Positions 15,046 through 33,546 of a DNA stretch of 64,000 nucleotides are shown here, in pieces. Each line of letters starts with the position of its first letter. The first letter of the stretch is position 1. Origin of the DNA: Kineococcus sp. NBC_00420. Its GTDB lineage: Bacteria; Actinomycetota; Actinomycetes; Actinomycetales; Kineococcaceae. The stretch is from NCBI RefSeq assembly GCF_036021035.1, contig NZ_CP107930.1:62001-126000 (forward strand). Reading direction: 5' to 3'. The notes beneath the pieces are model-generated. The model did not search any database. It was not told where the DNA came from and saw only the letters and a list, made by a program, of their open reading frames with translations. Both the position numbers and the translations under genes were made by a program.

Positions 15046-15087
15046 ACGCGCACCGCGACGTCAGGCGCAACACGCCATGCCCATGAG

Positions 15088-15618: not shown

Positions 15619-15676
15619 GGGCTAACCTCCGGTCTGAGCCTCACCGGCTCGACGTCCTCAGCGTGGAGGCACCCTC

Positions 15677-16816: not shown

Positions 16817-18099
16817 AGCAACCCGACCGCTTCCTTAGCTGGGCCGAGATCGACTCTGAGGCAATGGGTGACGCAACAGAGCTGACCGTTCCCATGCACG
16901 CCTACCTGAGGCAGATCGCCACCACCTTGCGCTCCGGCAGTGTCCGTAACTCCGACATAGCGCTGCGCTGCTTCACCCAGTTCATGTTCCAGGAACACCC
17001 TCAGATCACCCGCTTGGCTGACGTTCGTCGCGTCCACATCGAGGACTACAAGCCCTGGCTGGCCGCCCGCACCAACCAGCGCGGGAAACCCGTCACCGCC
17101 GCCACCCGCGCCCACCGCCTGGGCAACCTACGCACCTTCTTCATCCGCATCCGCGACTGGGACTGGCCGCAGGCCCCACCCACGGTTCCCATTCTCTTCG
17201 GTGACCTGCCGCGGCAGGAGAAACCCCTGCCGAAGGCCCTGGACGATGCCGCCGCCGCGAAGTTCCTGCGCGCCGCGCAGACCCGACCGCGTCTGCTCGA
17301 GCGGGTCATCTGCGAGGTCCTGATCCGCACCGGACTGCGCGTCGGGGAGTTCACCGGTCTGCGCCGCGACGCGGTCCGCCAGATCGGTGCTGGGCACTGG
17401 CTGCACGTTCCTGTCGGCAAACTCCTCGACGATCGCTACATCCCGCTGCACCCCCAACTGGTCGAGCTCATCGCCGATTACCGTGACCGCTTCGTCGACC
17501 CTGCCCACCCGCTGCTGTTGCCGCGGGAGAACGGCATACCCATGGACCGTTACAGCGTCACCCGCTGCCTGAACAACGTCGCCACCGCCGCCGGCCTCGG
17601 CCACGTCCACCCCCATCAGATGCGCCACACCCTGGCCACTCAGGCCATCAACCGCGGCATGAGTTTGGAGGCCATCGCTGCCCTGCTGGGGCATCACTCG
17701 ATGGACATGACCCTTCGCTACGCCAAGATCGCGAATCGGACCGTCGCTGATGAGTACTTCGCCGTCACTGAGAAGGTCGAAGCGCTCTACGCCGCCCACG
17801 ACCCCGACAACCTCGACGGCGAGAACACCGCACTACCGGCCTCCGCGGCCGGCCCGGAGATGGCCCGCCTGCACCGCGAGATGCATCAGCGGATGCTGGG
17901 CAATGGCTTCTGCACACGACCTCCGGCGCTGGATTGCACCTTCGAGTCGGTCTGCGAGACCTGCACGTTCTTCCAGACCTCGATCGCCTTCCGACCGACG
18001 TTGCAGGCCCAGTACGACCACGCCGCCGAACATGATCAACAAGGGCGTCAGCAGCTCTTCGCGGGCCTCCTCAGAGGCCTCGACCAGCCCGCGTCCTGA
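16813..18099 (+). CDS. Tyrosine recombinase, second of the pair, with C-terminal Cys cluster
   Basis: A 428-residue recombinase. Catalytic residues R176 (TGLRVGEF), K203 (VGKLLDD), H268 and R271 (HQMRH), H294 (LGHHS) and Y303 (RYAKI) are all present. A C-terminal extension carries FCTRPPALDC and VCETCTFF (residues about 367-385), a likely zinc-binding cluster like that seen at the end of TnpB-type partners of Tn554-family recombinases. The stop lies inside a 48-bp segment shared with 11053-11100, and a core repeat starts 28 bp later. Confidence 0.9.
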   Translation: MKQPDRFLSWAEIDSEAMGDATELTVPMHAYLRQIATTLRSGSVRNSDIALRCFTQFMFQEHPQITRLADVRRVHIEDYKPWLAARTNQRGKPVTAATRAHRLGNLRTFFIRIRDWDWPQAPPTVPILFGDLPRQEKPLPKALDDAAAAKFLRAAQTRPRLLERVICEVLIRTGLRVGEFTGLRRDAVRQIGAGHWLHVPVGKLLDDRYIPLHPQLVELIADYRDRFVDPAHPLLLPRENGIPMDRYSVTRCLNNVATAAGLGHVHPHQMRHTLATQAINRGMSLEAIAALLGHHSMDMTLRYAKIANRTVADEYFAVTEKVEALYAAHDPDNLDGENTALPASAAGPEMARLHREMHQRMLGNGFCTRPPALDCTFESVCETCTFFQTSIAFRPTLQAQYDHAAEHDQQGRQQLFAGLLRGLDQPAS

Positions 18100-18141
18100 C
18101 CCCCTTGACACCGATCACCTGCATAAGCGGGATGACCGTGA
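18094..18141 (+). repeat. Array element, copy 25, at right end of recombinase pair
   Basis: CCCCTTGACACCGATCACCT then GCATAAGCGGGATGACCGTG. It contains the right member of the TATG..GGTGATCGG inverted repeat (18111-18125) directly against the core. Confidence 0.85.
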
Positions 18142-18275
18142 GATTGCGCCCGCAATCGCTAGCGTCTCTGGATGATCTTGACGGTCGAGCTGCGGATCGC
18201 CACAGCAGCTCCCACGACCACCTCGGCGGTGCTTCGCGCCCTCTGCACTAGCCACCGATCGCTCCCTACATGGCC

Positions 18276-18749
18276 TCACCGAATCAGGGGTAGACGCTCA
18301 TCCAGCATGCGAGGAAGCTGCCCCCACCCCACCAAGGTCTCGAACGGCATGGTCGGGTCGATCTGGTCGGGGTCGATGACCACCTCAGCCAGCTGCACCA
18401 ACGGATCGTTCGCGTCGTAGATCACGATCCGGGGCGGCCCCATGCTGGGCCGGCGAAGGAAGCGAGTCACCTCCCACGGGTGCGGCTCCCACCCTTCGAG
18501 ACTGCCCAGCGTGGGCCAGGTGCCCTGCCGGACTAGACGGCCACCGAACCTGGCGACCAGGACGGCGTCATCCGGGGTGCCCGGCAGGAATCCGTCGACT
18601 GCGGGCAGTTCGGACCTTCGCGGTCCGAAGAAGAAGCCGAGCAGGATGCCCCTGTGCTCGCGCGAGACGCGGGTGATGAGCCCGACGGCGTAGCCCCCAC
18701 TGGGCAGCGGTATTCCGAGGACGTCCCCGGGTGAGCAGGTCGTGGGCAT
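18276..18749 (-). CDS. Imm26-like immunity protein
   Basis: The ATG at 18747-18749 gives a 157-residue protein starting with SPGDVLGIPLPSGGYAVGLI, the pattern expected at the start of immunity protein 26 domains (PGDvxaiPLpdG.ya.grv). The rest has strands ending in PRIVIYDANDPLVQL. Imm26 proteins are predicted to block polymorphic toxins; here no toxin is adjacent. The 130 bp between the previous core and its stop hold no other gene. Confidence 0.6.
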   Translation of the reverse strand: MPTTCSPGDVLGIPLPSGGYAVGLITRVSREHRGILLGFFFGPRRSELPAVDGFLPGTPDDAVLVARFGGRLVRQGTWPTLGSLEGWEPHPWEVTRFLRRPSMGPPRIVIYDANDPLVQLAEVVIDPDQIDPTMPFETLVGWGQLPRMLDERLPLIR

Positions 18750-18957
18750 GTGTCTGCTCGCTTCTGGTCGGTCCCGGTGGCCGCGATGAACCCTTGTCTG
18801 CGCCATCTTGCGGCTCGACCGGATGCGGCGGCTGCTTTAGGGCGGGAAGTCCTCCACCGCCTGACACCGTCCTCGCATCGCGGAAGGCTGCTCGTATCCC
18901 ACCTGCGGCACCAGTGGATGTGCGGTGCCTGCTGGGTACTGCTCCTGATGGACCGCT

Positions 18958-19010
18958 CGGTCATCGCCATGACCGCGACGTCGACGACCTCTTGGTCAGC
19001 GGGACGACCG
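18958..19010 (+). repeat. Array element, copy 26, degenerate core
   Basis: The clearest left arm: CGGTCATCGCCATGACCG (a 6-bp stem with a 6-base loop) then CGACGTCG. The core at 18999 reads GCGGGACGACCG with one change. A further weak core (GGCGGGGATGACC) is at about 19088. These account for the 370-bp gap between the two flanking genes. Confidence 0.7.
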
Positions 19011-19121
19011 TTCGGTCGAGAGTCGATGGCTGTTTCTACCGGGTTGAGCAGGTGTTGATGTCGGCGGTCGGGGCGTCCGGCGGGCCGGCGGGGATGACCA
19101 GCGAGGCTGGCTGCAGCGAGG

Positions 19122-19619
19122 ATGGGGATCGTGAGCGGCTGGGCAACGTTGGAGGAGATCACCGCGCTGGAAGCGCTGTACACCGCAGGTGCCAGCAAGA
19201 CGCTCGCCCCGGCTCGGGCTCAGCTGGCTGGACGTTGGCGGGCGGGTGAGCGTGATCGTGAGACAGCGCTGCGCTTGGCGTTCCTGGACTGGTACTCCTG
19301 CTCCGAACCGGAGTTTCTGACGGGGCTGCCCGATGTGTCCAGCGCCCAAGCGGTGGAGGAGGGCTTCTTCCTGCCTACCTGCGAGCACCTGCTGGCGGCT
19401 CACCCGGGCGATGTCGAGGTGCTCTTCGCCCTCGGATGGATGCTCACTTCCCATCCCTGGTGCGCTGGCGGTGCGTCGACGGGCGACGTCGAGGCCCGCG
19501 GGCGTGTGTTGTGGACGGCCTACCTGACCTCCCCGATCGAGCTCGGCGATGCGGTCTTCACTGATCGCGGCACTTACGGGATCTACTTCGCTCACATCCA
19601 GGCGACTCAGCGCCAGTGA
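19122..19619 (+). CDS. Hypothetical protein, helical, unknown
   Basis: A 165-residue ORF; ATG 19122 or the nearby GTG 19131 may be the start. It is helix rich and resembles a TPR-like superhelix: ETALRLAFLDWYSCSEPEF, CEHLLAAHPGDVEVLFALGW. Conserved-looking Trp and Cys residues could stabilise the fold. Small single-gene unit; function not recognised. Confidence 0.55.
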   Translation: MGIVSGWATLEEITALEALYTAGASKTLAPARAQLAGRWRAGERDRETALRLAFLDWYSCSEPEFLTGLPDVSSAQAVEEGFFLPTCEHLLAAHPGDVEVLFALGWMLTSHPWCAGGASTGDVEARGRVLWTAYLTSPIELGDAVFTDRGTYGIYFAHIQATQRQ

Positions 19620-19729
19620 GCGTCGCCGCGGCGGCGCAGCGTGAGGTCGTGCTCCTTCAAGTACTTGAGGCCTCGTCCGCTTCTCGCCGTGCCCGAGACG
19701 TCGCCGGCCTCTGGCAACGGTCCGGAGAG

Positions 19730-19866
19730 GCGGGATGACCGTGCGCTGCGCGCACCGCGGGGATATGTGGGTGGTTCCTGCTGCTCGGCTTCCACCCGGT
19801 CATCGCCAAGACCGCGACGTCGCGGCCGCCAACGTCTCGACCGGATCGCGGGATGACCGTGACGTT
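19730..19866 (+). repeat. Extended double array element, copies 27-28
   Basis: Core at 19730, then GCGCACCGCGGGGATATGTG and GGTGGTTCC, then CACCCGGTCATCGCCAAGAC and CGCGACGTCG, and a second core at 19848. It contains every part of the element in order. Confidence 0.85.
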
Positions 19867-19893
19867 CGGAGGAGCCGGACACTCCGTCGTGTC

Positions 19894-20205
19894 CTAGCTC
19901 TGGTAGCCGTCGATCACATCGAAGTCCGGCCCCAACTCGGTGCGCAGCCGAGCGACCAAGTCCCTGCCCGCTGCCACCCACGCGGCCAGATCCGCAGGGG
20001 TGCCTCGGATGGGCCCGGGCGGGTCCTGCAGCTCGTCGTGGTGCCGTGCCCAGGCCCGCACGTCAGTCTTGAGGTTGTCAGACAGGGGCAGCTGGCCGAG
20101 CTTGACCATGCCGTTCTGACGTCCTGCGACGCGCCGCCAGAGCGGGTCGGCGCCGAAGGCGGCCTTGAAGATCAGGGTTACTGGCGCCTGCATGTCCTCT
20201 GCCAT
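19894..20205 (-). CDS. Small hypothetical protein
   Basis: A 103-residue soluble ORF with segments FGADPLWRRVAGRQN, KTDVRAWARHHDELQ and GRDLVARLRTELGPDFDV. The compact helical layout and single-gene setting are like orphan immunity proteins, but no family was recognised. Confidence 0.5.
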   Translation of the reverse strand: MAEDMQAPVTLIFKAAFGADPLWRRVAGRQNGMVKLGQLPLSDNLKTDVRAWARHHDELQDPPGPIRGTPADLAAWVAAGRDLVARLRTELGPDFDVIDGYQS

Positions 20206-20274
20206 CGCTGCACGGTATCCAGCGGGACGTGGTCGTCTGCTGGCGCTAAGACCGTTGGATGTCCCGTGCGCACC

Positions 20275-20387
20275 GCGGGATGACCGTGAGGTCGTAGGCC
20301 GCCGTGATCACATCCGGACATCGCCATGACCACGACGTCGTACGCCGTGGACGACAGCGCGCACAAGGCGGGATGACCGTGAGGTCG
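20275..20387 (+). repeat. Extended double array element, copies 29-30
   Basis: Exact core at 20275, then GTGATCACATCCGGACATCG, CCATGACCACGACGTCG, spacer, GCGCACAAGGCGGGATGACC and the final GTGAGGTCG. The left arm CATCGCC and right GGCGGGATG can pair, and ATGACCRYGACGTCG-type sequence occurs in both halves. Confidence 0.85.
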
Positions 20388-20410
20388 TTGGCTCCGGCAC
20401 AGTGGAGGCC

Positions 20411-21049
20411 ATGAGCGAGCCGGTCGGTGTCGACTTCGGGCCCGTCGACGGGGAGGCCTTGCCGCACGGTCTGCGGGTGCTGCTGGAGTCGCTGCAGCCG
20501 GGTCAGGCTCCGCTCCACGCGGCCCCGCTCCCACCTTCTCCGTTCGCCCAGCGGCAGGACCGCGAGGCGTTGCGGCAGCGCCTCGGCTTCGCGGTGCCCG
20601 GGTTGTCGGTGCTGCGGGAGGCCGGGCAGGTGGAGGTGCTGTTCAGTCTCGAACCTGAAGGCCTGGTCGCTCCGCAGGAGCTGCGTGGGGGCAGTGCTGG
20701 GGTGCTCGTGCTGTACGCCCCCGACGAGGCGGTGCTGGAGGCGGTGCTGCACGCGGAGGTGGTGGCCGGGTCGGCGTCGCAGGTGACCTCGATGCACGTG
20801 AGCTACGGCGACCCGTGGCCACCGGCGCAGCCGGCGACGCTGCGGCTGGTGACGAGTGGTGACACCACGATGGTCTCAGTGCACGGTCATCACGTGGGGG
20901 TGCAGCACCACCGGGTGGGCCAGACCCGGCTGGCGTGGCAGCAGCGCTTCGGGAGCGTGGACTGTGACGTCACGGTCTATGCGGTGTTCTCACCGGTGTC
21001 GGCGGTGCAGATGCTGGCTCGGTGCGACGTGCTGATCGGCGTCTCGTGA
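20411..21049 (+). CDS. Hypothetical protein, unknown
   Basis: A 212-residue soluble ORF from ATG 20411 (a GTG at 20402 is the alternative). It is mostly beta with segments QVEVLFSLEPEGLV, GVLVLYAPDEAVLEAVL, TLRLVTSGDTTMVSV and CDVTVYAVFSP. No motif recognised. It starts 23 bp after a core repeat. Confidence 0.6.
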   Translation: MSEPVGVDFGPVDGEALPHGLRVLLESLQPGQAPLHAAPLPPSPFAQRQDREALRQRLGFAVPGLSVLREAGQVEVLFSLEPEGLVAPQELRGGSAGVLVLYAPDEAVLEAVLHAEVVAGSASQVTSMHVSYGDPWPPAQPATLRLVTSGDTTMVSVHGHHVGVQHHRVGQTRLAWQQRFGSVDCDVTVYAVFSPVSAVQMLARCDVLIGVS

Positions 21050-21098
21050 GGCACGGCTCGGGCCGGGCTACTTCGGCCTTCGGTCGCTCCTCAACGTT

Positions 21099-21145
21099 GT
21101 GATCATCGGCAGGGTCGCGCGGACGGCGGGATGACCGTGACGTCG
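21099..21145 (+). repeat. Array element, copy 31
   Basis: TTGTGATCATCGGCAGGGTCG then GGACGGCGGGATGACCGTGA and CGTCG. Confidence 0.75.
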
Positions 21146-21234
21146 AGTTCTCGCCGTCACGGCTGCTGGCCGAAGGGCACCGTGGATTGACGACGCAGTG
21201 GACTTGCTCGTCCGGCCTCTGGCTGACTGGGTCT

Positions 21235-22170
21235 GTGATCGAGAAGACCGACCCGGTCCCTGCGCAGCTGCGTGCTCTGGGCTACCCCGACGCGCGCTGG
21301 CTGGCGGCGGGCATGGAAGCCGACGTCTACGCCCTCAACGAGCAGACCGTCGCCCGGCTGCCCCGGGAGGCAGCTGCAGCCGACACGGGGCCCGTAGAGC
21401 GAATGCTTGAGCAGCTGAATCAGTGCCGCCTGCCGTTCGCCGTCCCTGCCCCACTGGGCCGCCTCAACCTGTTCGATGGTCGCTTTCTGCTGCGTCAGCC
21501 GCGCTTGCGCGGCCGCAGTATCGGAGACTTCTACGACCCAGCCGCTGGGCGCCTGGATCCCCGCGCCGAGCAGGCGTTGGTCGAGCTGCTGAGCGCGCTG
21601 CGCACCATCCCGCACCCGCAGCCGATTGAGATGCCTGACTTGCCGCTTTTGGGCGACTCGATGGTGACCACCGCTCAGCCTTGGGCGGCAGCCTTGCAGC
21701 AGTTGCTCGACGATCGCATCCGCCGCTTTGGAGGGTTGCTGCGGGTGCACGTCGACCGCCTGGACGACCTGGTGGAGGCCTGCGGCGCTTTCCTGTCCAG
21801 CCGCCGGGACGTGGCAGTCGCGTTGCAGCACGGGGACATCTGTCCGGAGAACGTGCTGGTCGACGACGACTGCCGGCTCAGTGCGGTCCTGGACTGGGGG
21901 TTCCTGACGATGCTGGCTGATCCGGTGCTGGAGATGGCGATGACGTCGGGTTTCTTCGACATGTACGGCCCGCATGCCCTGCGTACCGACCAGCGACTGA
22001 GCGATCTGTTCGTCGAGGCGTTCAGCGTTGAGCGCGCGGACATCCTGCGGTTCAAGGCCGTCTACGCCCTCATCGGCGCTAACGCTTACAGCGGTACCGC
22101 CGACGGGCACTTCCGCTGGTGCGCCGCGGTGCTGCGGCGGCCTGACGTCCGCTTTGCTGTCCTGCTGTAG
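21235..22170 (+). CDS. APH-type phosphotransferase, second type
   Basis: About 311 residues from the GTG at 21235; an upstream TTG at 21187 is possible but adds residues unlike the family. The GMEADVYALNEQTVARLPRE start resembles the nucleotide-binding strand pair; VALQHGDICPENVLVDDD is the catalytic loop and AVLDWGFLTMLADP the metal-binding loop. These match macrolide 2'-phosphotransferase-like and other APH proteins, but the substrate is unknown. It shares little sequence with the 11526 gene, so it is not a duplicate. Confidence 0.75.
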   Translation: MIEKTDPVPAQLRALGYPDARWLAAGMEADVYALNEQTVARLPREAAAADTGPVERMLEQLNQCRLPFAVPAPLGRLNLFDGRFLLRQPRLRGRSIGDFYDPAAGRLDPRAEQALVELLSALRTIPHPQPIEMPDLPLLGDSMVTTAQPWAAALQQLLDDRIRRFGGLLRVHVDRLDDLVEACGAFLSSRRDVAVALQHGDICPENVLVDDDCRLSAVLDWGFLTMLADPVLEMAMTSGFFDMYGPHALRTDQRLSDLFVEAFSVERADILRFKAVYALIGANAYSGTADGHFRWCAAVLRRPDVRFAVLL

Positions 22171-22212
22171 ACCGCCGACTTGGTGTCAGCTGGTCGCTCT
22201 GCCATCGACAGA

Positions 22213-22263
22213 CCCGGTCGTCGCCAACCCCCGGGGCGACCGCGCACAACGCGGGATGACCGG
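22213..22263 (+). repeat. Array element, copy 32
   Basis: CCCGGTCGTCGCCAACCCC, then GCGCACAACGCGGGATGACC at 22243-22262. Confidence 0.75.
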
Positions 22264-22283
22264 ATGCGGAACACCCGCTGCGG

Positions 22284-22778
22284 GTGGTGCTGGTGAGCGA
22301 CGATCGCCTCATGGCTGTTGCTCCGCTTCACGTCCGCGCGCGGGTGCGCCACGAGCCGGACCGCTCCTACGCGGTGCTCGTCGACGGGCCTGAGGGGGAG
22401 GTGCTGGTGGGCACCACCCGCCGCACCGGGGAAGTGCTGACGATCGCGCACGAGGGGGCGGCCCGGGTGTTCGCGGTGGCGGTGGGGCAGATCGCGCGGT
22501 CCTTGGACGTGGCGTGGCCGCGGCCGCCGTACGGGCGTGATGGGCAGTGGGTGCGCATCGTCGCGGTGGAAGATCCCAGCGACGTCGAGGAGGTGGAGAT
22601 GCTGGGAGTCGCGGGGCAGGTGCACTGGTTCGGGGCGGAGTCGGCGTGGTTCGTGACAGTGCCCGGGTACGGCACGGGCATCTACCCCGGTGAGCTGCTG
22701 GACTTCGAGGCCGTGATCAGCGCGGAGGAGGAGGCAGCGCTGCGGGCGTACACGAGCGGGGGCGCTGATCCGTCCTGA
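22284..22778 (+). CDS. Hypothetical beta-rich protein
   Basis: A 164-residue ORF with internal starts at 22293 and 22311 as alternatives. Strand-like segments include SYAVLVDGPEGEVLVGTTRR and TGEVLTIAHEGAARVFAV, then QVHWFGAESAWFVTVPGYG and an acidic C-terminal helix. Family not recognised. Single-gene unit. Confidence 0.55.
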   Translation: MVLVSDDRLMAVAPLHVRARVRHEPDRSYAVLVDGPEGEVLVGTTRRTGEVLTIAHEGAARVFAVAVGQIARSLDVAWPRPPYGRDGQWVRIVAVEDPSDVEEVEMLGVAGQVHWFGAESAWFVTVPGYGTGIYPGELLDFEAVISAEEEAALRAYTSGGADPS

Positions 22779-22812
22779 TCGTGCCCGGCTGAGCGGGTGG
22801 AGCACGCGGACG

Positions 22813-22832
22813 GCGGGATGACCGTGAAGTCG
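22813..22832 (+). repeat. Core repeat, copy 33
   Basis: Exact core GCGGGATGACCGTGAAGTCG preceded by GGACG. Confidence 0.85.
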
Positions 22833-22922
22833 ATCAGGGGTGCAGGAGTCGCCTCATGCTCACCGCTTCGACGGACAACGTGCGGGGCTTAGGCAAGCTC
22901 GGAGTGGACGATCTCCGGGGAG

Positions 22923-23324
22923 TCAGCTGGGTTGTTGCCGATGCAGCCAACGGCTGAGTCGGCGGTGCCAGCGGGACTCCTGCCACGTCTCCTCAGCGGC
23001 GAGCTCTTCGGCGGCGAAGGCGCGCACGGCCACGACGTCAGCCTCGGCCAAGTCGGGACGCGTTCGCGCTAGGGCCTCGCGCAGCGCAGGGAGGTCGTAC
23101 TGCCCGGTGGGAGTGAGCTTCACCCGGAGGTCGGCGCGGGCGACGCGTTCAATGCCGACCTTGATGACCTCGCCGTCGTCGAACCAGGCGATCTCCTCGT
23201 ACTCCCCGTCGTCGACGTCAATGGCTTCCATCGAGCTAGCAGCGAAGCTGAGGTCGACGAAGACGATGGGCTCCAGGCTGTCCTCTGCATCGAAAGCGAT
23301 CACTGCTCGCGACGTCTGCTCCAC
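22923..23324 (-). CDS. Hypothetical acidic protein
   Basis: The open frame runs to 23369, but its first part (TVIPLIVR) is translated repeat, so a GTG at about 23322-23324 is preferred, giving about 133 residues. The protein is acidic (DDGEYEEIAWFDDGEV) with a basic C-terminal tail (RWHRRLSRWLHR). Family not recognised. If the longer start were used, the core repeat would be inside the coding region. Confidence 0.5.
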   Translation of the reverse strand: MEQTSRAVIAFDAEDSLEPIVFVDLSFAASSMEAIDVDDGEYEEIAWFDDGEVIKVGIERVARADLRVKLTPTGQYDLPALREALARTRPDLAEADVVAVRAFAAEELAAEETWQESRWHRRLSRWLHRQQPS

Positions 23325-23347
23325 GCCCTCATGATCGCGCACGATCA

Positions 23348-23363
23348 GCGGGATGACCGTGCG
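23348..23363 (+). repeat. Core repeat, copy 34
   Basis: GCGGGATGACCGTGCG, lying between two divergent genes. Confidence 0.8.
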
Positions 23364-23407
23364 CTCCACGCCATCTCGTCGCCACCTCGATGTGTGAACA
23401 TGCAGCG

Positions 23408-23929
23408 ATGACGAACCTCCGGCTAGCGCCCCTGGCCGGGACGGCAGACGACGTGCGCGTCGTGCAGCACATCTTGAACCAGGCCCCGGACTACGCGCTG
23501 CGGGTCACCGGCCAAGCGCCAGGACCTGATGACGCTGCTGAGATGTTCCTGGCACTGCCACCCGGGGTGGACCGAGCAGCCAAGTACGTCTACGGCCTCT
23601 TTGTTGAGGATGAGCCGGTAGGGGTCTTGGACGTGATCCGCGGTTGGCCTGATCCTGCGACGGCCCACATCGGCCTGCTGCTGCTTGAGGAAGCGCGAAC
23701 TGGTCAGGGCTTGGGCCGTGCGGCGTACCAGGGCGTCGAGGACCTCGTGCGGCAATGGAACGAGGTGCACTGCGTGCGCGCTGCGGTCGTGGCGACTAAC
23801 GATGTGGTCCTGCCTTTCTGGCGTTCCGTCGGTCTCACACCGACCGGGGAGACGAAGCCCTACCAGCGCGGCTCCATCACCTCGTACGCGATCATCCTGA
23901 CCAAGGCGTTGTACCCAGTTACACCCTGA
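23408..23929 (+). CDS. GNAT family N-acetyltransferase
   Basis: A 173-residue protein from ATG 23408. It has the usual GNAT order: an N-terminal strand LRLAPL, the VGVLDVIRGWPDPATAHIGL strand pair, then EEARTGQGLGRAAYQ (the acetyl-CoA-binding R/QxxGxG/A loop) and VVATNDVVLPFWRSVGL, the C-terminal NxxAxxFYxxxGF-like block. The product transfers an acetyl group from acetyl-CoA to an unknown amine. Single-gene unit. Confidence 0.8.
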   Translation: MTNLRLAPLAGTADDVRVVQHILNQAPDYALRVTGQAPGPDDAAEMFLALPPGVDRAAKYVYGLFVEDEPVGVLDVIRGWPDPATAHIGLLLLEEARTGQGLGRAAYQGVEDLVRQWNEVHCVRAAVVATNDVVLPFWRSVGLTPTGETKPYQRGSITSYAIILTKALYPVTP

Positions 23930-23963
23930 ACGCTCCACCGGCCTCGGCCACAGCGCGCGACCA

Positions 23964-23977
23964 GCGAGATGACCGCG
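23964..23977 (+). repeat. Degenerate core repeat, copy 35
   Basis: GCGAGATGACCGCG; two changes from the core. Confidence 0.5.
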
Positions 23978-24016
23978 CATGTGGGGTCTGGCGGCGGCGA
24001 GAAGGCTCGTGCCGAT

Positions 24017-24382
24017 CTAGTCGTCGAGGGGCCACTGCCCGGTCCGGCGGAACTCCACCACCGCTCGGTCCCACTGCGCTTCGTCACCTTCTTCGGCAGG
24101 GTGCGGCTCGTTGCCCGCGAGGAAGCCCGCCAGCCACAGCTCCGCCTCCGGCGACAAGGTGCGGATCTGATTCTTGGACACGTTGAAGCCCTGGTCAGAG
24201 TGCGGGCAGTAGGCGCCCAAACGGCCGGGGAAGGTGTGTGGGTTGCCCGTGAGGTAGTCGCGCCCTTCGCACTCGTCGTTGGTGAACCACAGCCGCACGT
24301 CAATCGGGTAGTCCGGCCCGTAGTGCAGCTTGGCCATGGCCACGATCTCAGCCTTGCTGTGCTCCTCCGACTCGCTCACCAC
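24017..24382 (-). CDS. Hypothetical protein, unknown
   Basis: About 121 residues if the GTG at 24380-24382 is used; the longer frame upstream crosses a core repeat and looks non-coding. Segments IVAMAKLHYGPDYPIDVRLW, NDECEGRDYLTGN and PEAELWLAGFLAGNEPHP suggest a compact alpha/beta protein. Family not recognised. Confidence 0.5.
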   Translation of the reverse strand: MVSESEEHSKAEIVAMAKLHYGPDYPIDVRLWFTNDECEGRDYLTGNPHTFPGRLGAYCPHSDQGFNVSKNQIRTLSPEAELWLAGFLAGNEPHPAEEGDEAQWDRAVVEFRRTGQWPLDD

Positions 24383-24504
24383 CCCAGCATGGCCTCTTCG
24401 TCGCCGCCGGCTGTCTCGGCCGGTCTCTCCGATCGAGGGCTGCGAACGCACGCACTCACCTCGTCGGGCGGGGTCGTCGCTGGCCACCCGAGACCGCGCA
24501 CTAC

Positions 24505-24524
24505 GCGGGATGACCGTGACGTTA
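24505..24524 (+). repeat. Core repeat, copy 36 (last plus-strand core)
   Basis: GCGCACTAC followed by GCGGGATGACCGTGACGTTA; last clear plus-strand copy. A left arm without a core (CGGTCATCGTCATGTCCGG) is at 25174-25192. Confidence 0.8.
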
Positions 24525-25097: not shown

Positions 25098-25318
25098 GTC
25101 CGTTCATCGGCAGGCGCGTATCGGTGCTTGAGGGTGCCGTCTTGAGTGCCCAAACGGGTGGTCAAAGACCGCTCGGTCATCGTCATGTCCGGTAGATCGG
25201 GCGCCTCGTCCGCCTCACTCCCGGTCGTCCACCGGACGATGCTGCCTGCCTCGTGTAGTTCCACGGCGACATCGGGCGAACGAGCCTCGGTCGCCCCGAA
25301 ATGCCTAGGCTCGTGCGC

Positions 25319-26077
25319 ATGTGGACGGGAGCGCAGGATGTGTACGCCAGCGCCTTCGTCTCGCGACACGTCCCCTCGGGCCGGGCGGTCCTGGAGGGGC
25401 CGGGGATTCACGGCGCAGCCCTCGCCGATAGCACCTCACCCGTTCGCCTCCTGGTTACCGACGATCGGGCCCACGACGAGCTCGCCGCTCTCCTGCCGAG
25501 CATCCGGACCGGGATGATCGACCTCTTCGCGGAGGCCACCCGCTGCACCGCGCTCGTCCAGGCTCACCTCGAGTGGAGGTCGAGGGCGGCGACGGCGATG
25601 GCCTGCCGCGACCTGCGGACCGTGCCGGAGTCGACTCTGACCGGCGAGCTGATCCTCCTACCGGTGCGCCGGCTGGCCGACGACGCGGTCGACGGGGTTC
25701 CGCTGGACGACGCGGTCGCCGTCGCCCTGTCCGCGGATCCCACCTTCGAGGAACCTCACGCCGTGCTCGCCGGGTACCTGCGGTCACTGTCGCCCGCCTT
25801 CCAGCTCTTTGCCGCTGTGGACGTCGACGGCGCTGCGCACGCGACGTCAGGCGTCGGCGTCTTCGGCTCTCAGGCGACCGTCATCTTCGTCAACACCGGT
25901 CCCGGGTGGCGTTCCCGCGGGATCGGCAGGGCCATGACCGCTGCCGCTCTGAGCGCCGCCCAGGCGACGGGCGCAGAGCAGGCCTGCCTCAACGCCAGTG
26001 AAGCCGGTCTACCGATCTACCAGCGGCTGGGCTTCGAGACCGTCGCGCGCACGACACGTTCCTCGAGTCCCACCTGA
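25319..26077 (+). CDS. GNAT-domain protein
   Basis: About 252 residues from ATG 25319 (an ATG at 25301 is also in frame). The N-terminal 130 residues are a separate helical region. The C-terminal half carries a GNAT fold: TVIFVNTGPGWRSRGIGRAM (acetyl-CoA loop RxxGxG), AACLNAS-type ACLNASEAGLPIYQRLGFET at the end. The substrate cannot be inferred. Upstream there is only an isolated left arm of the array element. Confidence 0.75.
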   Translation: MWTGAQDVYASAFVSRHVPSGRAVLEGPGIHGAALADSTSPVRLLVTDDRAHDELAALLPSIRTGMIDLFAEATRCTALVQAHLEWRSRAATAMACRDLRTVPESTLTGELILLPVRRLADDAVDGVPLDDAVAVALSADPTFEEPHAVLAGYLRSLSPAFQLFAAVDVDGAAHATSGVGVFGSQATVIFVNTGPGWRSRGIGRAMTAAALSAAQATGAEQACLNASEAGLPIYQRLGFETVARTTRSSSPT

Positions 26078-26267
26078 CCGCATACGCCTGAACGGCCCCG
26101 GGGCAGTGAGCTCGCGGCGTCCAGCTCGAGGTCCAACGGCTGCACGGCTGATGGTCACACGGACGTCGGCATGAGTAGCCCTGCGTCAAGCGGCCGCCGC
26201 GAGAACAGTCTGCAGAACCCTGTGCTGAGCGGGGTCGTAGGCCACGCCGTCTTGCCAGCAACGCTAG

Positions 26268-27892
26268 CCTCGATCTTTCACGACGATCTCAGCTCGGGTA
26301 GTCGACACGAGCCGTAGATGCAGCGAAGTGCCTGCTCTGCAGTCGATCATGGTGCTTGTCGAGAGCCCATGGCCATCACGCAGAGAGGCACTTCGTGAGT
26401 GAAGACTAAACCCAGCCCCCACCGACTGACCATGACCGGAGACGGCGAGTCGCTACTGTCCTCCGCGGGCGCGTCGTTGCTGGTCGACACCGCAAGGTTC
26501 AGCGGCTTGGACCCCGCCCTGAGCCGGGAGCTCGCACCGTGGCGCAGCCCGTGGGCGATCCACGATCCCGGCAAGATCATCCTCGACCTGGCCACTGCCG
26601 TGGCCCTAGGCGGTGACTGCCTGGCCGACCTCGGCGTCGTCCGCGCCCAACCCGAACTCTTCGGCCTCGTCGCCTCCGACCCGACCGTTTCGCGACTGAT
26701 CACCAGACTCGCCCAGGACGCACCGACCGCCCTGACGGCACTGCGTCGAGCCCGGGCCGCCGCACGGGAGAAGGTCTGGTCCACCGCTTCCCCGGTCCCG
26801 CAGCAGGGGCACATCATCATCGACCTGGACGCCACCATCGTCGCGTCGCACTCCGAGAAAGAAGGCGCCACCGCAACGTGGAAACGGACGTTCGGGTTCC
26901 ACCCGCTGCTGGCGTTCGTCGACCACGGCCCCGGCGGAACCGGGGAGTACGTCGGCGGACAACTACGCATTGGCAAGGCAACCGCCAACGACGCCGCAGC
27001 CCACATCGCTGTCCTGACCGAAGCACTGCAGCAACTGCCCGAGCACGAACGCCCCCGAGTGCTGGTCCGTGGCGACGCCGGCGCCGGAGTCCAAGCGTTC
27101 GTCCGTCACCTGCACGACACCGGACTGGCGTATTCAGTTGGGCTGTACGTGCATCACCCGATCCTGGACGCCTTGCCGCAGATCCCCAAGCGGGCCTGGC
27201 GGGCCGCCATCGAACCAGACGGCTCCGCTCGTGATGGCGCCCAGGTCGCCGAACTGACCCGCTACGTCCGCCCGTCGAAGAGTCCCTGGCCACCGGGCAT
27301 GCGGATCATCGCCCGCCGGGAACGGCCGCACCCGGGAGCCCAGCTGCGCATCACCGACGCGGACGGCTGGCGCATCACCGTCTTCGCCACCAACGTCCCC
27401 GGCGGGCGAGTCGCCGACCACGAATTGACCCACCGGCTACGGGCGCGGGCCGAGGACCGGATCCGCTGCGTCAAGGACACCGGCTTGCGCAACCTGCCCC
27501 TGCAAGGGTTCGCCGCTAACGAGATCTGGCTTGAGATCGTCGCGTTGGCCAACGACCTGCTCGCCTGGACCCAGCACCTGGCTCTCACAGGCACCGCGGC
27601 CCGGGTCTGGGAACCTAAACGGCTGCGTCTAAGACTACTCACCGTCGCGGGGCGCATCGTCCGCACCGGACGGCGGACCCTGCTGCGGCTTCCGCGGTCT
27701 TGGCCCTGGGCTCGGCTGATCCTCACCGCCCACCGACAACTCGCCGACCTCAGCCCCTGACCGTCATCAACGTCCCGACAACCGGAGCTTCGGAAACCGC
27801 GACAAGACGCGGGGCTTCTCCACGCCCACGCACGAAACCCCAGGTCAGCGCCTCAATACGCCGCAGCACAACCCTACGGTGAAAGATCGAGG
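26268..27892 (+). mobile_element. IS1380-family insertion sequence
   Basis: Ends are inverted repeats CCTCGATCTTTCAC (left, 26268) and GTGAAAGATCGAGG (right, to 27892), 14 of 14 bases. Both sides are flanked by CTAG (26264-26267 and 27893-27896), a plausible 4-bp target duplication. Total length about 1,625 bp, in the normal range for the family. The right flank continues into half of the palindromic repeat described at 27893, while the left flank does not, so the two sides were probably not originally joined. Confidence 0.85.
26399..27760 (+). CDS. IS1380-family transposase
   Basis: A 453-residue DDE transposase filling the IS. HIIIDLDATIVASHSEKEGA carries the first catalytic Asp, VLVRGDAGAGVQAFVRHLHD the second, and FAANEIWLEIVALANDLLAW the C-terminal Glu region; TWKRTFGFHPLLAFVDHG is a typical family block. 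No frameshift or stop is seen, so it appears intact. Start GTG precedes MKTKPSPH. Confidence 0.9.
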   Translation: MKTKPSPHRLTMTGDGESLLSSAGASLLVDTARFSGLDPALSRELAPWRSPWAIHDPGKIILDLATAVALGGDCLADLGVVRAQPELFGLVASDPTVSRLITRLAQDAPTALTALRRARAAAREKVWSTASPVPQQGHIIIDLDATIVASHSEKEGATATWKRTFGFHPLLAFVDHGPGGTGEYVGGQLRIGKATANDAAAHIAVLTEALQQLPEHERPRVLVRGDAGAGVQAFVRHLHDTGLAYSVGLYVHHPILDALPQIPKRAWRAAIEPDGSARDGAQVAELTRYVRPSKSPWPPGMRIIARRERPHPGAQLRITDADGWRITVFATNVPGGRVADHELTHRLRARAEDRIRCVKDTGLRNLPLQGFAANEIWLEIVALANDLLAWTQHLALTGTAARVWEPKRLRLRLLTVAGRIVRTGRRTLLRLPRSWPWARLILTAHRQLADLSP

Positions 27893-27968
27893 CTAGGGCA
27901 GCGCCGTCGAGTAGTCACCGCAGGGCACAAGCAGGTGGGTCCCGCTACCTACTGCCGGTCGCTCTAAG
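27893..27968 (-). repeat. Half copy of palindromic repeat B
   Basis: These 76 bp are the exact reverse complement of 62879-62954, the left half of one of the two 143-bp palindromes at the right end of the window. It abuts the IS directly, and its outer end CTTAGAGCGACC overlaps the stop codon of the next minus-strand gene. Confidence 0.9.
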
Positions 27969-28173
27969 TCCTGCTGCGACCTGACTGGAGCCTGCGGCGA
28001 GTAGTCACGCCAGCCAGAGCGCCGAGCCCGATGCCGAAAGAGGCTATGAGGACCGGGAGGAGCCAACCGGGTACCGACGGGACGATGAGCGCCACCACGA
28101 GTCCCAGAACAGCTCCCAGAGCAGCCGCGATGGCGCCAACTATCGCGGGGAGCCAAGCTTTGATCTCGTTCAC
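27964..28173 (-). CDS. Small two-helix membrane protein
   Basis: A 69-residue ORF with hydrophobic segments at about 8-32 and 35-56 and a basic C-terminus. Its TAG stop lies in the end of repeat B. A ribosome-binding-like AAGGGTGG is upstream of the ATG. No family recognised. Confidence 0.55.
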   Translation of the reverse strand: MNEIKAWLPAIVGAIAAALGAVLGLVVALIVPSVPGWLLPVLIASFGIGLGALAGVTTRRRLQSGRSRT

Positions 28174-28202
28174 GAGACCACCCTTTCAAGACGCGGAGAC
28201 CG

Positions 28203-28262
28203 TACGGTCATCCCGCGATACGGGCGGTCGGCAACCTCGCGGTCTCGGCGAAGACCGAGCGT
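28203..28262 (-). repeat. Array element, reverse orientation, copy 37
   Basis: Read on the minus strand: CGGTCTTCGCCGAGACCGCG then AGGTTG, spacer, and GTATCGCGGGATGACCGT. Same left-arm and core order as the plus-strand copies but inverted. Confidence 0.8.
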
Positions 28263-28338
28263 CTCGAACACCACGATCAGAGCAGGACCGAGCACCCGCG
28301 TCGAGCACCCCGCCAGCGCAGACGCGGGACACTCCTCA

Positions 28339-28972
28339 GGTGCAGCTCACCTCCACCGACGGCGCCGTGTTCGAGCTCCGTCCCAGCGGCTACGAGTACC
28401 CCGACTTCACCACTGCCGGCGAACTGGACGCCAACTGGCTCATGCTGCATGGGAGGGTTCGCACCGCTGCTGGGGAGTCATTGCGTTCGAGGGGCCGGAC
28501 CTGAGCACGTGGGAGGCGAAGGAGCTGCTGGACTGGCTGCACGCCGCGGCCGAAGGACGCCTCGAGCCGACGGATGTCCCGGGCTTGTAGCTCGTGACAA
28601 GCACGCTGATGTTCACCGAGCCCAACCTGGCCTTCAGCGTCGCCGCGGTGGACGGTGAGTACACGACACTGCGCGTGCACCTGTCCCTGGAGGCGGCCGC
28701 AGGCAGACCCGGGTGGACGACGGACCCCAGGCCCGGCATCTACGAGTACAGCGTCCCGTTGCGGGTCGACCGGGCTCAGTTGCTCACGGCGGCGGAGCAG
28801 TGGTGCAGCGACCTCGCGCCGTTCCCGGCTCGTCGACGACGGGGAACCGCCGTCGTGGGGCGAAGTCCTCGGCTCTGGCTGGTACCTCGCGCTCACCCCA
28901 CTGGTCGCGCGGTCATCCCGCGATGCGGGCGGCGCACGATCATCCTGCGGTGCGTACCAAGGCAGGTCGGGT
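28339..28972 (+). pseudogene. WapI-family immunity-like gene, broken
   Basis: Three pieces of one protein can be read in different frames: LTSTDGAVFELRPSGYEYPD to NWLMLHGRV, then AFEGPDLSTWEAKELLDWLH in another frame, then, after a TAG at about 28588, MFTEPNLAFSVAAVDG and WCSDLAPFPAR. The order fits WapI-type immunity proteins. A frameshift near 28470 and the in-frame stop make it non-functional unless the sequence is wrong. Exact ends are uncertain. Confidence 0.6.
28909..28954 (-). repeat. Two minus-strand cores, copies 38-39
   Basis: GCGGTCATCCCGCG at 28909 and CGATCATCCTGCGGTGCG at 28937, the second with one change. Both are reversed relative to the 0.4-24.5 kb array. Confidence 0.75.
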
Positions 28973-29017
28973 GATCTTGTCACGCGATCTTGCGAGCAGC
29001 GTCATGGCGGATCGGTG

Positions 29018-31132
29018 CTAAACGCCCGGACTCCTCGAGGCGCACACAGTGGTGTTCCGTCCACCCTGCTTACCGCGATACAAGGCCGCATCAGCCTCAG
29101 CGATCACCTGCGCCACCTGTAGTCCTGGACTCCACTGCGCCACCCCGACGGTGCAGGTCTGCCCACGCGGGACCGCAGCACGGATGCGGTCCACGACGAT
29201 GCGTGCCTCCTGCGCGGTGCACCCGGGCAGGGCCAGCACGAACTCCTCCCCACCCCAGCGGGCCAGAGTGTCCAGGCCGCGCAGGCAGGAAGAAGCCGCG
29301 GCGGCGAACTCGCGCAGCAGCACGTCCCCGGCCAGATGGCCGTGGGCGTCGTTGTAGCGCTTGAAGTGGTCCAGATCGATCATCGCCAACGTCAACGACG
29401 TCCCACCGCGCTCAGCCCGCTGGACCTCCGCGGCCACCGCCTCATCCCAGCGGCGGCGGTTGGCCAGACCCGTCAACGGATCGTGTTCAGCAGCCTGCGC
29501 CAGCCGCGTCAACAACTCCGCACGTTCGATGGCGTGAGCGGCCTCAGCGGCCAGAGTCTGCAGCAACGGCATGATGTGCGCCGGCAGCTGCTCGCGAGAG
29601 GTACACCAGTACACCCCCAGCACCCCCACGACCTGCTCTCCGGGCAGTACGACCGGCTGCCAGATGGCCGAGGCGGTCCCCAGGGCCTGCAACAGTCGCG
29701 CTGAGGCGGCCGGGTGGGCCGGGACGTCGGCGACGAAGAGGCTGCGCCCTTCGGCCAGCGACAGACCGGGCAAGGACACCTCTCCGGCGGGGATGTGCAC
29801 GCCATCGACCGGCAACCCCACACTGGCGGTGCTGCGTAGATTCCCCTGCTCATCGGGGCGCAGCAGGTAGACCGCGTCGGCGTCGGTGAGCTCACGCACC
29901 GTCTGGCAGATGACGTCGTGAGGTCTCTCGGCTGTGGCCAGCGTCCGGGAGGCCTCGGCCAGAGCTTCGACGTGGGCGGCGTGCTGGGCCAGCTCGGCGT
30001 GGGCCGTGGCCAGCTCGGCATGAGCGCTGGCCAGGGCTTGGGCGTGAGCGCGGTCGGCGCTGACATCGCTCATGGCGACCACCGCGCCCAGCACTGTGCC
30101 GTCGAGGCGGCGCATGACCCGTCCGGAGCAGACCAGCGCACGCGGCGGACAGCCGCGCCGGGCCAGCACGATCTCCACCCCTTCCACCGCTCCCTCGCGC
30201 AGGACACGATGGACGGGGACCTGCTCGGCGCTCAGGGGCGTGATGCCGTCCGCAGCGAACAGGTCGTAGACCCCCGCGTGCTCACTGGGGTCCAAAGAGG
30301 CGTCGGGTTGCAGGCCGTGCCAGTGACGGGCGGTGCGGTTGAACGAGGTCAGGTGCCCCTGGGGGTCGACCACGACGAGGCCGACGTCGATGGTCTCCGA
30401 GATCGCCTCGCTCAACTCCCAGCGTTCCTCGGCCTCGGCCATGGCCAAGACGGTGATCTCGCGTGCCTCGGCGGCCTCAAGAGCCTGCAGCTCAGCAGCG
30501 CGGGTCTGGCGACGGCGCTCGAACAAGGCCACCAGCACGGTGGCCAGGTCCCGCAGCACAGCCATCTGCTGCGCGTTAAGTGCTCCCGGCACGGTGTCGA
30601 AGACGCACAGTGACCCCAGCGCGTGACCGGCGGGACTGATCAGGGGCGTGGAGGCGTAGAAGCGCACCTGCCCCAGGCGGCCGTCCACCCAGGGGTTGCC
30701 CGCGTAGCGAGGGTCGCGTGAGGCATCGACGACGTGCACGAGGTCGCCGTCTTCGAAGTGCAACGCACACATGGAGTCAGCCCGGGCTGAGTAGCCCCCT
30801 TCGAAGCCGACCGTGGTGAGCTGGCACTGGCGGTGTTCGTCGATGAGGTTCAACGTCGCGTGCGGGACCCCGGCCACCACCGCGGCCGCGCGGACCACCG
30901 CGGACAGTTCGTCGTCGGCGGGAGCATCGAGAAGGCGGTACTCGTGCAGAGCAGCCAACCGTGCGGGCTCCCCACCGCGTGCGGGCTGTCCACCGCGCTC
31001 AAGCTGTCCACCGCGCCCAGGCGGTTCGACGCCGGCGAGAGACGAGAAGGGCCGCGGTGAGCTCATCGGCTCCTGCCTGTCCATGAGGCAGGTATCGGCA
31101 GTCCCCATCCCCGCGTTGAGGACGATCCGCAC
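29018..31132 (-). CDS. Diguanylate cyclase with GAF-PAS-GAF sensor region
   Basis: A 704-residue protein (an internal ATG at residue 23 is another possible start). Domains in order: a GAF-like domain at about 50-205 (ATLNLIDEHRQCQL; LGSLCVFDT), a PAS at about 235-350, a second GAF at about 390-540 and a GGDEF domain at about 545-700. The active-site loop is GGEEF, preceded at the usual five-residue distance by RGLD, a canonical RxxD inhibitory site. It should make c-di-GMP with product inhibition. It is divergent from the GGDEF-EAL gene, with 145 bp between them. Confidence 0.85.
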   Translation of the reverse strand: MRIVLNAGMGTADTCLMDRQEPMSSPRPFSSLAGVEPPGRGGQLERGGQPARGGEPARLAALHEYRLLDAPADDELSAVVRAAAVVAGVPHATLNLIDEHRQCQLTTVGFEGGYSARADSMCALHFEDGDLVHVVDASRDPRYAGNPWVDGRLGQVRFYASTPLISPAGHALGSLCVFDTVPGALNAQQMAVLRDLATVLVALFERRRQTRAAELQALEAAEAREITVLAMAEAEERWELSEAISETIDVGLVVVDPQGHLTSFNRTARHWHGLQPDASLDPSEHAGVYDLFAADGITPLSAEQVPVHRVLREGAVEGVEIVLARRGCPPRALVCSGRVMRRLDGTVLGAVVAMSDVSADRAHAQALASAHAELATAHAELAQHAAHVEALAEASRTLATAERPHDVICQTVRELTDADAVYLLRPDEQGNLRSTASVGLPVDGVHIPAGEVSLPGLSLAEGRSLFVADVPAHPAASARLLQALGTASAIWQPVVLPGEQVVGVLGVYWCTSREQLPAHIMPLLQTLAAEAAHAIERAELLTRLAQAAEHDPLTGLANRRRWDEAVAAEVQRAERGGTSLTLAMIDLDHFKRYNDAHGHLAGDVLLREFAAAASSCLRGLDTLARWGGEEFVLALPGCTAQEARIVVDRIRAAVPRGQTCTVGVAQWSPGLQVAQVIAEADAALYRGKQGGRNTTVCASRSPGV

Positions 31133-31277
31133 CCCCTCCCGGAGAGCACCGCAGGGCTTGAGGAAGGCGCCAGGACACGCCCGGCTGGCTCACCGGGCTG
31201 CGAGGCGCGCTTCCCCCGTACTGGTGGGTTCTCCCTGGCGCGCTACAGCCGCGCACGACGTCAGCCGAAACCTGATC

Positions 31278-33476
31278 GTGAGCACCGCACTGCCCGCCGA
31301 GGCCCAAGTGGAGTCCTGGCGCCTTCCGGGGCGGTCGCGACTGTCAACACCGGTGTGGCGGGTCCGCCACCGCTGGGTCACCACGGTCCTCGCGATCCAC
31401 CTCCCACTGCTGCTGGCCTGGGCTCTGCTGCACCACGCCTCCACCGACACCCTGCTCACCCTGTGCGCACCGGCCGCCCTGTACCTGGCCGCCGCGATGG
31501 AAACCCTCAGCCGCGGCCGGCTCCTGCTACCCCCTGTGCTGGCCTCCTGCGCCGCTGCCGCCGGGTTGATGGCCTGCTCCTCGTTCCTGGTCGCCGTCTC
31601 CGGCGGCTACATCGAAGCCCACTTCCACTTCTTCGTGATGATCCCCGTCGTCGCCCTCTACGAAGACTGGGCCCCGTTCGCTGTCGCCGCAGGGATCGTG
31701 CTGCTCGAACACGGGGTCGTCGGCACGCTCTGGCCGCACAAGGTCTACGGCCACGCCGCGATGCACAGTGAACATCCCTGGCTCTTCGCCGCCATCCACG
31801 CCGGGTTCGTCATCGCCGCCTGCCTGGGCTCGCTGACCGCCTGGACACTCAGCGAACGCGCCCGCACCGCCCAAGCGCAGCTCCTGCAGCAGCTGCACCA
31901 CCGCACCCGCCACGACGACCTCACCGGCCTGGCCAACCGCACCGGCCTGAACGAAGCCCTCGACGCCGCCCTGGAGGCCGCCCTGGCCACCGACACCCCC
32001 GTCTCGGTCCTGGCCATGGACCTGGACCACTTCAAGGCCGTCAACGACACCCTGGGCCACTCCGCCGGCGACCACCTCCTGCGCGAAGTCGCCGCCCGAG
32101 CCACCGCGTCGTTGACCGAAGCCCTCACGAAGTCACTGACCGGGACCCTCCACGTCACCACCAGCCCTAACGCACTCACCGTGCGCCTGGGCGGGGACGA
32201 GTTCGCCGTCCTGCTCCCCGGGCTGGACGCAGACCAAGCCCTGCAGCTGGCGCAGCACCTGAGACGCAGCATCGGCCGCGCCACCACCTTGCTGGGAACC
32301 ACCGTCAGCACCTCGGTCAGCATCGGCGTCGCCACCCGCCCAGCCAGCTTCGCATCCGGCCAAGCCGTCACCGACCCGCTCACCACCGCCTCGCTCACCA
32401 CCGCGCTGCAGGCCGCCCCCACACGGCACGCTCCACAAGACCGCGCGCTGATCGCCGAGCAGTTGTTGCGCGAAGCCGACGTCGCGATGTACGTGGCGAA
32501 GACCTCCGGCAGCGGCACCAGCCTCTACGACCCCACCCATGACCAGCACACGACCGAACGACTGGCCGCCCTGAACGACTTCCAGCAGGCCCTGGACTCC
32601 GACCTCACCCTCGACCGGGTCTCGGGTGAGCCGTCACGTCAGCATCCGGACCAGGAACTCGAGCCCCGGCCCGGCGTAGAAGTCGAGCCCCGGCCCCGCG
32701 GAGGCGAGGACCGGCAGATCGTGGTCCACCTCCAGCCCAAGGTGTCGGTCAGCACCGGGCAACTCGTGGGAGTCGAGGCATTGGCCCGGTGGAACCACCC
32801 CACCCGTGGTGTCCTGCCGCCGAGCGAGTTCATCGCCATGGCCACCAGCCCCGACCTGTCCGAGGCGTTCACCACCCGCGTCCTGGAAGCAGCGCTGGCT
32901 CAATGCAGTACCTGGCTGCACGCCGGCTACGAGGTACCCGTCTCGATCAACGTCACCGCCCACTGCCTGCCCCGACTCGCGCTGCCGATGCGGCTGCTGG
33001 ACGCCCTGCAACGCCACGGCGTCCCACCCCGGCTGCTGTGCCTGGAGATCACCGAGGACATCCTGGTTGCCGACCCGGACACGACCGCCGAAGTCCTTGC
33101 CCTCTTGCGTCACGCCGGGATCCGCTGCTCCATCGACGACTTCGGCACCGGCTTCTCCTCCCTGTCCTACCTGCGCCGGCTCCCGCTGGATGAGTTGAAG
33201 ATCGACCGGTCCTTCATCCTCGGCTTGTTCCCCCACGGACCCGACGAGGAAGTCGATGACGTCGTGGTGGGCGCCGTCATCGACCTGGGCCACCGCCTCG
33301 GCGTTCACGTCGTAGCCGAAGGCGTCGAGCACCAGCATGAGCTCGACGTCCTGGCCCGGTTGGGCTGCGACAGCGTGCAGGGCTACCTGCACTCCCCACC
33401 TGTCCCCGCGTCCGCGTTCCCCCAGCACCTGCTCGAAACGACCCGGACCATGCCCTCGCAACCGTCGCTTGCTTGA
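31278..33476 (+). CDS. Membrane GGDEF-EAL protein
   Basis: The open frame starts at 30813, but the first 155 codons are antisense to the divergent gene. The GTG at 31278 is preferred and gives 732 residues. Five to six hydrophobic segments (residues about 35-195, with HFHFFVMIPVVALYEDWAPF) form a membrane sensor. Then a GGDEF domain (RLGGDEFAVLLPG, no RxxD site at the usual place) and an EAL domain with VGVEALARWNHP, ITEDILV, DDFGTGFSSLSYL, KIDRSFI and VAEGVE, all expected for active phosphodiesterase. The balance of synthesis and breakdown of c-di-GMP cannot be told. Confidence 0.85.
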   Translation: MSTALPAEAQVESWRLPGRSRLSTPVWRVRHRWVTTVLAIHLPLLLAWALLHHASTDTLLTLCAPAALYLAAAMETLSRGRLLLPPVLASCAAAAGLMACSSFLVAVSGGYIEAHFHFFVMIPVVALYEDWAPFAVAAGIVLLEHGVVGTLWPHKVYGHAAMHSEHPWLFAAIHAGFVIAACLGSLTAWTLSERARTAQAQLLQQLHHRTRHDDLTGLANRTGLNEALDAALEAALATDTPVSVLAMDLDHFKAVNDTLGHSAGDHLLREVAARATASLTEALTKSLTGTLHVTTSPNALTVRLGGDEFAVLLPGLDADQALQLAQHLRRSIGRATTLLGTTVSTSVSIGVATRPASFASGQAVTDPLTTASLTTALQAAPTRHAPQDRALIAEQLLREADVAMYVAKTSGSGTSLYDPTHDQHTTERLAALNDFQQALDSDLTLDRVSGEPSRQHPDQELEPRPGVEVEPRPRGGEDRQIVVHLQPKVSVSTGQLVGVEALARWNHPTRGVLPPSEFIAMATSPDLSEAFTTRVLEAALAQCSTWLHAGYEVPVSINVTAHCLPRLALPMRLLDALQRHGVPPRLLCLEITEDILVADPDTTAEVLALLRHAGIRCSIDDFGTGFSSLSYLRRLPLDELKIDRSFILGLFPHGPDEEVDDVVVGAVIDLGHRLGVHVVAEGVEHQHELDVLARLGCDSVQGYLHSPPVPASAFPQHLLETTRTMPSQPSLA

Positions 33477-33504
33477 GCGATCAGCAAACCCAGCCGCACA
33501 ACCG

Positions 33505-33546
33505 CACGGTCATCCCGCGGTGCGCACGCAGCGCAGGGTCATCCCC
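33505..33546 (-). repeat. Minus-strand core and partial core, copies 40-41
   Basis: CACGGTCATCCCGCGGTGCG at 33505, then GGGTCATCCCC at 33536. These are the last recognisable copies in the window. Confidence 0.8.

Follow-up and report, generated by a model that had tools for sequence, protein, structure and literature searches.

An IS1380 insertion sequence probably marks the scar of a deletion or larger rearrangement in a repeat-bounded gene array of Kineococcus

The window, the whole 64,000-nucleotide stretch analysed here (G000:C1:62,001–126,000 of the single 5,434,400-bp contig of Kineococcus sp. NBC_00420), contains an IS1380-family insertion sequence that lies between the tail of an IS110-type transposase gene and one half of a miniature inverted-repeat element, repeat B (Table 1). 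Its transposase scores 318.2 bits against NF033539, above the NCBIfam equivalog cut-off of 180, and is also matched by PF13701. Like ISEcp1 and ISPme1 of the same family, the element combines a family transposase with short terminal inverted repeats and, in the copies seen, a 4-bp target duplication; unlike them, it has CTAR targets, and a captured 3′ segment was not found.

Table 1. Features on both sides of the insertion sequence and related features elsewhere in the window (window positions unless marked as genome)
Feature	Position	Strand	Remarks
Forward part of dispersed-repeat array, GCGGGATGACCG sites all +	432..24516	+	
XerC/XerD-like tyrosine recombinase gene pair, between GCGGGATGACCG sites	15677-18099		
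GNAT acetyltransferase gene, left of scar	25301..26077	+	88% identical to G008 C333
3′ tail (~101 bp) of IS110-type transposase gene, cut at IS1380	26167..26267	-	left CTAG included
Left CTAG at IS1380	26264..26267	.	from sequence; CCAG here in IS110-gene relatives
IS1380-family insertion sequence, 1625 bp	26268..27892	+	14-bp perfect terminal inverted repeats CCTCGATCTTTCAC
IS1380 transposase, 453 aa	26399..27760	+	NF033539, PF13701
Right CTAG at IS1380, central CTAG of repeat B	27893..27896	.	from sequence
Half of repeat B (136-bp miniature inverted-repeat element)	27893..27964	-	identical to 62883-62954 and genome 215,323
Outer target duplication TAA of cut repeat B	27965..27967	.	from sequence; compare TTA/TTA, TAA/TAA at intact copies
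Small membrane-protein-like gene, ends approximate	27969..28180	-	stop codon is repeat B insertion point; membrane character judged by eye
First reverse sites right of IS1380 (28205, 28910, 33507)	28205..33518	-	
Second intact repeat B in window (genome 124,323)	62324..62457	-	87% identical
Intact repeat B	62883..63018	+	TTA each side; CTAG at 62951-62954

A sequence-only reading of the locus had placed the IS inside one half of repeat B and had noted a 76-bp identity to its right. Both observations hold: the IS sits at the central CTAG of repeat B, with CTAG on each of its sides, and 27893–27968 is the reverse complement of 62879–62954, a match that BLAST extends to 78 bp (E = 2e-37). The same reading took the perfect identity with the 62879 copy, 35 kb away, as a sign of recent transposition or conversion of repeat B. 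A link to that copy in particular is not supported; because the copy at genome 215,323 carries an identical half and matches equally well, the 62879 copy is no special partner. The insertion of IS1380 into repeat B is supported by the half element itself, by the outer TAA, and by a paralogue of the neighboring small gene at genome 49,761–50,066, which lacks repeat B and is identical at 244 of 254 positions, with the identity stopping at the B junction.

Repeat B has 17-bp terminal inverted repeats that match at 16 of 17 positions, a 3-bp target duplication and a central CTAG; copies other than the 136-bp one measure 137, 135 and 134 bp. A sequence search of the 5.43-Mb assembly returned eight matches: the 62883 copy, those at about 215,320 (99% identical), 245,320 (91%) and 124,323 (87%), the half at IS1380, two diverged or partial matches at 229–230 kb, and a 24-bp end at 2,112,168. 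Target sites read TTA/TTA at 62883, TAA/TAA at two genome copies and TTA/TAA at 62324. The central CTAG is restricted to three copies (62883, 215,323 and the half at IS1380), with CGCAGT, CGAGGT or similar in the others. At genome 229,625–229,820 lies a long variant whose center consists of GC-rich tandem repeats. Three of the 11 Kineococcus genomes, this one included, contain a repeat B match, and none was found in 72,556 plasmid records.

The likely parent of repeat B, judged by its ends, is an IS5-family element such as the one at G008 C103:1728-3877. This element is flanked by TAA on each side, both of its ends are the 17-bp left end of repeat B, the right end of repeat B differs from them at one of 17 positions, and its transposase scores 139.9 bits against NF033580 (cut-off 110). 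It is 2150 bp long and apparently carries an S66 LD-carboxypeptidase gene beside the transposase. Repeat B thus resembles other MITEs that derive from IS5-family elements in its length of 136 bp, in terminal inverted repeats common with an IS5-family element, and in a 3-bp TWA duplication. It differs in that no autonomous copy with the same ends was found in its own genome, where the search gave only a relic of 2238 bp, at 2,112,171, that retains a remnant of a transposase.

On the left of the IS, the tail of the IS110-type gene aligns ungapped with two of three copies in genome G007 (88 of 101 positions identical). The G007 homologue itself matches NF033542 (IS110) in two reading frames at 55.4 and 37.8 bits, against a cut-off of 140. 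In all four IS110 relatives inspected (three in G007, one in G011) the position of the left CTAG reads CCAG. The remainder of the gene is absent from the Kineococcus sp. NBC_00420 genome, where the sequence beyond the tail yields four matches of 26–38 bp only. Equally absent, as the sequence-only reading had held, is the second half of repeat B: 20 of 68 positions left of the IS agree with it, compared with a mean of 19.7 in random windows. The left and right flanks occur together in none of 10 related genomes, and the undisturbed locus was not found there.

One-ended movement as in ISEcp1 or ISPme1 might be invoked for this arrangement, with IS1380 carrying half of B and more DNA from beyond its 3′ end into the IS110 gene. 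Such movement is described for this family in PMC9330008, and the B half does adjoin the IS at its 3′ end. Three findings speak against it: to the right, CTAG does not recur until 34428, 6.5 kb on; of the CTAR sites as far as 34000, none is accompanied by a repeat resembling the right end (the best agrees at 8 of 15 positions); and the genome lacks the remainder of the IS110 gene. We regard this explanation as very improbable.

The search for IS1380 in the genome gave five matches: the window copy, its sole identical copy at 151,750, relatives at 458,919 (81%) and 303,245 (72%), and a 26-bp match. The other copies that the sequence-only reading presupposed therefore exist. Matching CTAR flanks both ends in all four copies. 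A wider target survey took in 45 relatives from named genomes, their ends being found by pattern; six had a pattern-matching end, with CTAG at both ends in two and CTAG or CTAA at the single end found in four, and the other 39 had no end that matched the search pattern. The copy at 151,750, with CTAA on each side, is a clean insertion in an ISAs1 gene: rejoining its flanks gives an open frame of 436 codons, both parts of which match the ISAs1 transposase. Rejoining the flanks of the window copy restores no frame.

An identical copy of a 1625-bp element could also allow an assembler to skip the DNA between two copies, so that the junction in the window would be an artefact, and an identical copy does exist. 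A swap with the 151,750 copy is excluded by the matching CTAA and the open frame of the latter, and the genome was assembled into one contig that ends in inverted repeats and has a completeness of 100. An assembly artefact is therefore unlikely, in our view.

Both neighbors of the window copy end at IS1380, and the DNA linking them is absent from the assembly. We propose, with a probability of roughly 0.6, that IS1380 marks the scar of a deletion, or of a larger rearrangement, at the IS, in which this linking DNA was lost. In this model, a young repeat B element would have received one IS1380 copy at its central CTAG; the DNA to the left of the IS would then have been lost along with the left half of B, so that the IS came to abut the IS110 tail. 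We infer that the loss proceeded by recombination between direct IS copies or by an IS-driven adjacent deletion. The likeliest course would be homologous recombination with a second, directly oriented IS1380 copy that had entered the IS110 gene, or an adjacent deletion that stopped at a CTAG of that gene, and both would leave the CTAG seen on each side of the IS. Deletions through homologous recombination between element copies, as well as adjacent deletions that begin exactly at an element end, are described in PMC9330008. The coincidence of the IS with a turn in site orientation and GC skew, described below, also speaks for a scar.

The CCAG of the IS110 relatives counts against this explanation: only after a nonsense mutation at that position could the IS110 copy have served as a target, and the left CTAG is thus at most a putative target copy from IS110. 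The lack of an undisturbed locus among the 10 related genomes and of a surviving recombinant partner also counts against it. Because of the CCAG we leave about a quarter of the probability to a different order of events, in which the IS110 tail and half of B were first joined by illegitimate recombination (...AACGC to TAGGGC...) and IS1380 inserted later at the resulting CTAG. A prior junction of this kind accounts for the difference between CTAG and CCAG, the C coming from IS110 and the TAG from B. Against it, a chance break inside the central CTAG of the 136-bp B would be needed, followed by the choice of that very site by the IS, in a 64-kb window where CTAG occurs 43 times.

Returning to loss of DNA at the IS as the preferred explanation, we can narrow what the event was. 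The sequence-only reading had suggested deletion or recombination between two IS copies, with the missing half of B to be sought beside another copy; it had recognised neither the truncated IS110 gene on the left nor the turn of the repeat array and GC skew at the IS. Loss of the other side by some deletion or rearrangement stands, whereas exchange with a surviving copy does not, since the missing half of B and the IS110 remainder lie beside none of the four IS copies and nowhere else in the assembly (for the half of B, at high identity). No recombinant partner of the scar survives in the assembly. An exchange between the two identical IS1380 copies was rejected because each keeps its own matching duplication and the 151,750 flanks rejoin to an open frame. 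An inversion that moved the missing half next to a different IS was likewise rejected, as the genome has no such half. The unpaired half at 229,625 is not the missing one, being 87% identical and part of the longer B variant with internal tandem repeats.

The scar itself is ordinary, one more IS-associated rearrangement of a kind already known. Linear Streptomyces chromosomes are known for IS-associated deletions and end rearrangements, and the window resembles these in that the break on the chromosome arm coincides exactly with an IS. It differs from them in its host, Kineococcus, and in that nothing in the assembly preserves the partner or indicates how much DNA was lost.

The position of the scar is of greater interest. 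The two ends of the contig repeat each other in inverted orientation (223 bp, 78% identical, the first 42 bases the same), and the chromosome is therefore probably linear, with the IS some 88 kb in from one end. These end repeats, at G000 C1 1-222 and 5434184-5434400, contain CGCTGGCGCG motifs and are probable telomeres. A linear chromosome has been confirmed by hybridisation in Kineococcus radiotolerans SRS30216, according to PMC2587704.

Along this arm the repeat sites turn at the IS. With one mismatch allowed, 67 sites on the plus strand and none on the minus strand lie between 39 and 88.27 kb of the genome, compared with none on the plus strand and 62 on the minus strand between 89.89 and 220 kb. 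The GC skew changes sign here too, its cumulative curve reaching a maximum at about 85 kb. The orientation switch falls between 86.5 and 90.2 kb, an interval much of which is filled by IS1380, a coincidence noticed after the fact; the turn may once have lain in the DNA lost at the scar. A second turn of both site orientation and GC skew occurs at genome 439,095–462,829, a 24-kb interval with an IS1380 relative at 458.9 kb. An inversion between the relatives at 88 and 459 kb is not supported, as they have the same orientation and are 81% identical. The reversal of the array would also be explained if the outer 88 kb came from a linear plasmid; among 10 + 6 ORFs tested from 1–45 kb, no match to a partition or replication-initiator protein was obtained. 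Just to the right of the scar, the gene at window 28322–28881 is apparently frameshifted near 28481, its G004 relative being in one frame.

The sites themselves far exceed chance, the core GCGGGATGACCG occurring 35 times in the window where 0.1 would be expected. GCGGGATGACCGTG is present in all 11 Kineococcus genomes, at 2 to 147 copies each, and its reversed control in none. Co-oriented GCGGGATGACCG sites run through genome 39–220 kb, which takes in window 432–33518, and occur at genome 402–487 kb and at 4.42–4.73 Mb of G005 C2. Since 59 of 63 exact sites between 39 and 88 kb fall outside the selected ORFs, which are divided between 23 on the plus and 23 on the minus strand, site orientation is not a mere reflection of gene direction. 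Comparison of the arrays of this genome with one another and with G005 gave 38 homologous blocks. Of their 152 ends, 52 are no more than 20 bp from a site, where 7.9 would be expected, and 33 of the 38 blocks keep site orientation; four of the five exceptions involve a diverged recombinase pair at 165–168 kb and one lies at 91 kb. A looser earlier count that included site-free stretches was weaker, with 12 of 50 block ends within 60 bp of a site against 9.9% expected.

Within the forward part of the array lies the recombinase pair (Table 1), whose members resemble XerC and XerD with scores below the cut-offs. Near-identical copies of the pair are found at 169–172 kb and 5.354 Mb, and the diverged copy is the one named above.

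The arrangement invites comparison with integrons. Like integron cassette arrays, the Kineococcus array has co-oriented short sites between ORFs, with exchangeable homologous blocks that end there and are shuffled. Unlike them, it has no integrase above the cut-off (IntI, TIGR02249, in none of the 11 genomes), its core differs from the attC core, and an attC-like fold is unsupported. The attC core is GTTRRRY. In 45 sites the consensus fold was a mere 3-pair hairpin, with a single-sequence mean z of -0.37 for the first 40, and 29 of the 45 had an upstream partner motif, where chance would give 38%. An imperfect, attC-like palindrome read in the site listing was not borne out by this alignment fold test. 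The IntegronFinder 2.0 work (PMC9024848) reports no complete integrons in Actinobacteria. Nothing on the Kineococcus repeat array was found in the literature among the matches listed.

We tentatively put forward, as a possibility that we rate as clearly less likely than not, that IS1380 marks the seam of a genus-wide cassette system on linear Kineococcus arms, at which two halves of opposite orientation meet. In such a system, GCGGGATGACCG sites would separate movable gene units, and the multi-copy, site-bounded XerC/XerD-like pair may move them, giving an integron-like arrangement without IntI or attC, within a phylum for which no complete integrons were reported. The repeat array, with its homologous blocks ending at the repeats, is a more novel lead than the scar and merits separate study. 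What gives the scar importance is its place on a linear chromosome arm, between two parts of a repeat-bounded gene array that face opposite ways. Should this array prove to be a site-specific cassette system, Kineococcus would offer a counterpart to integrons that is independent and open to test, and seams like the IS1380 scar would show how the chromosome arms are rebuilt.
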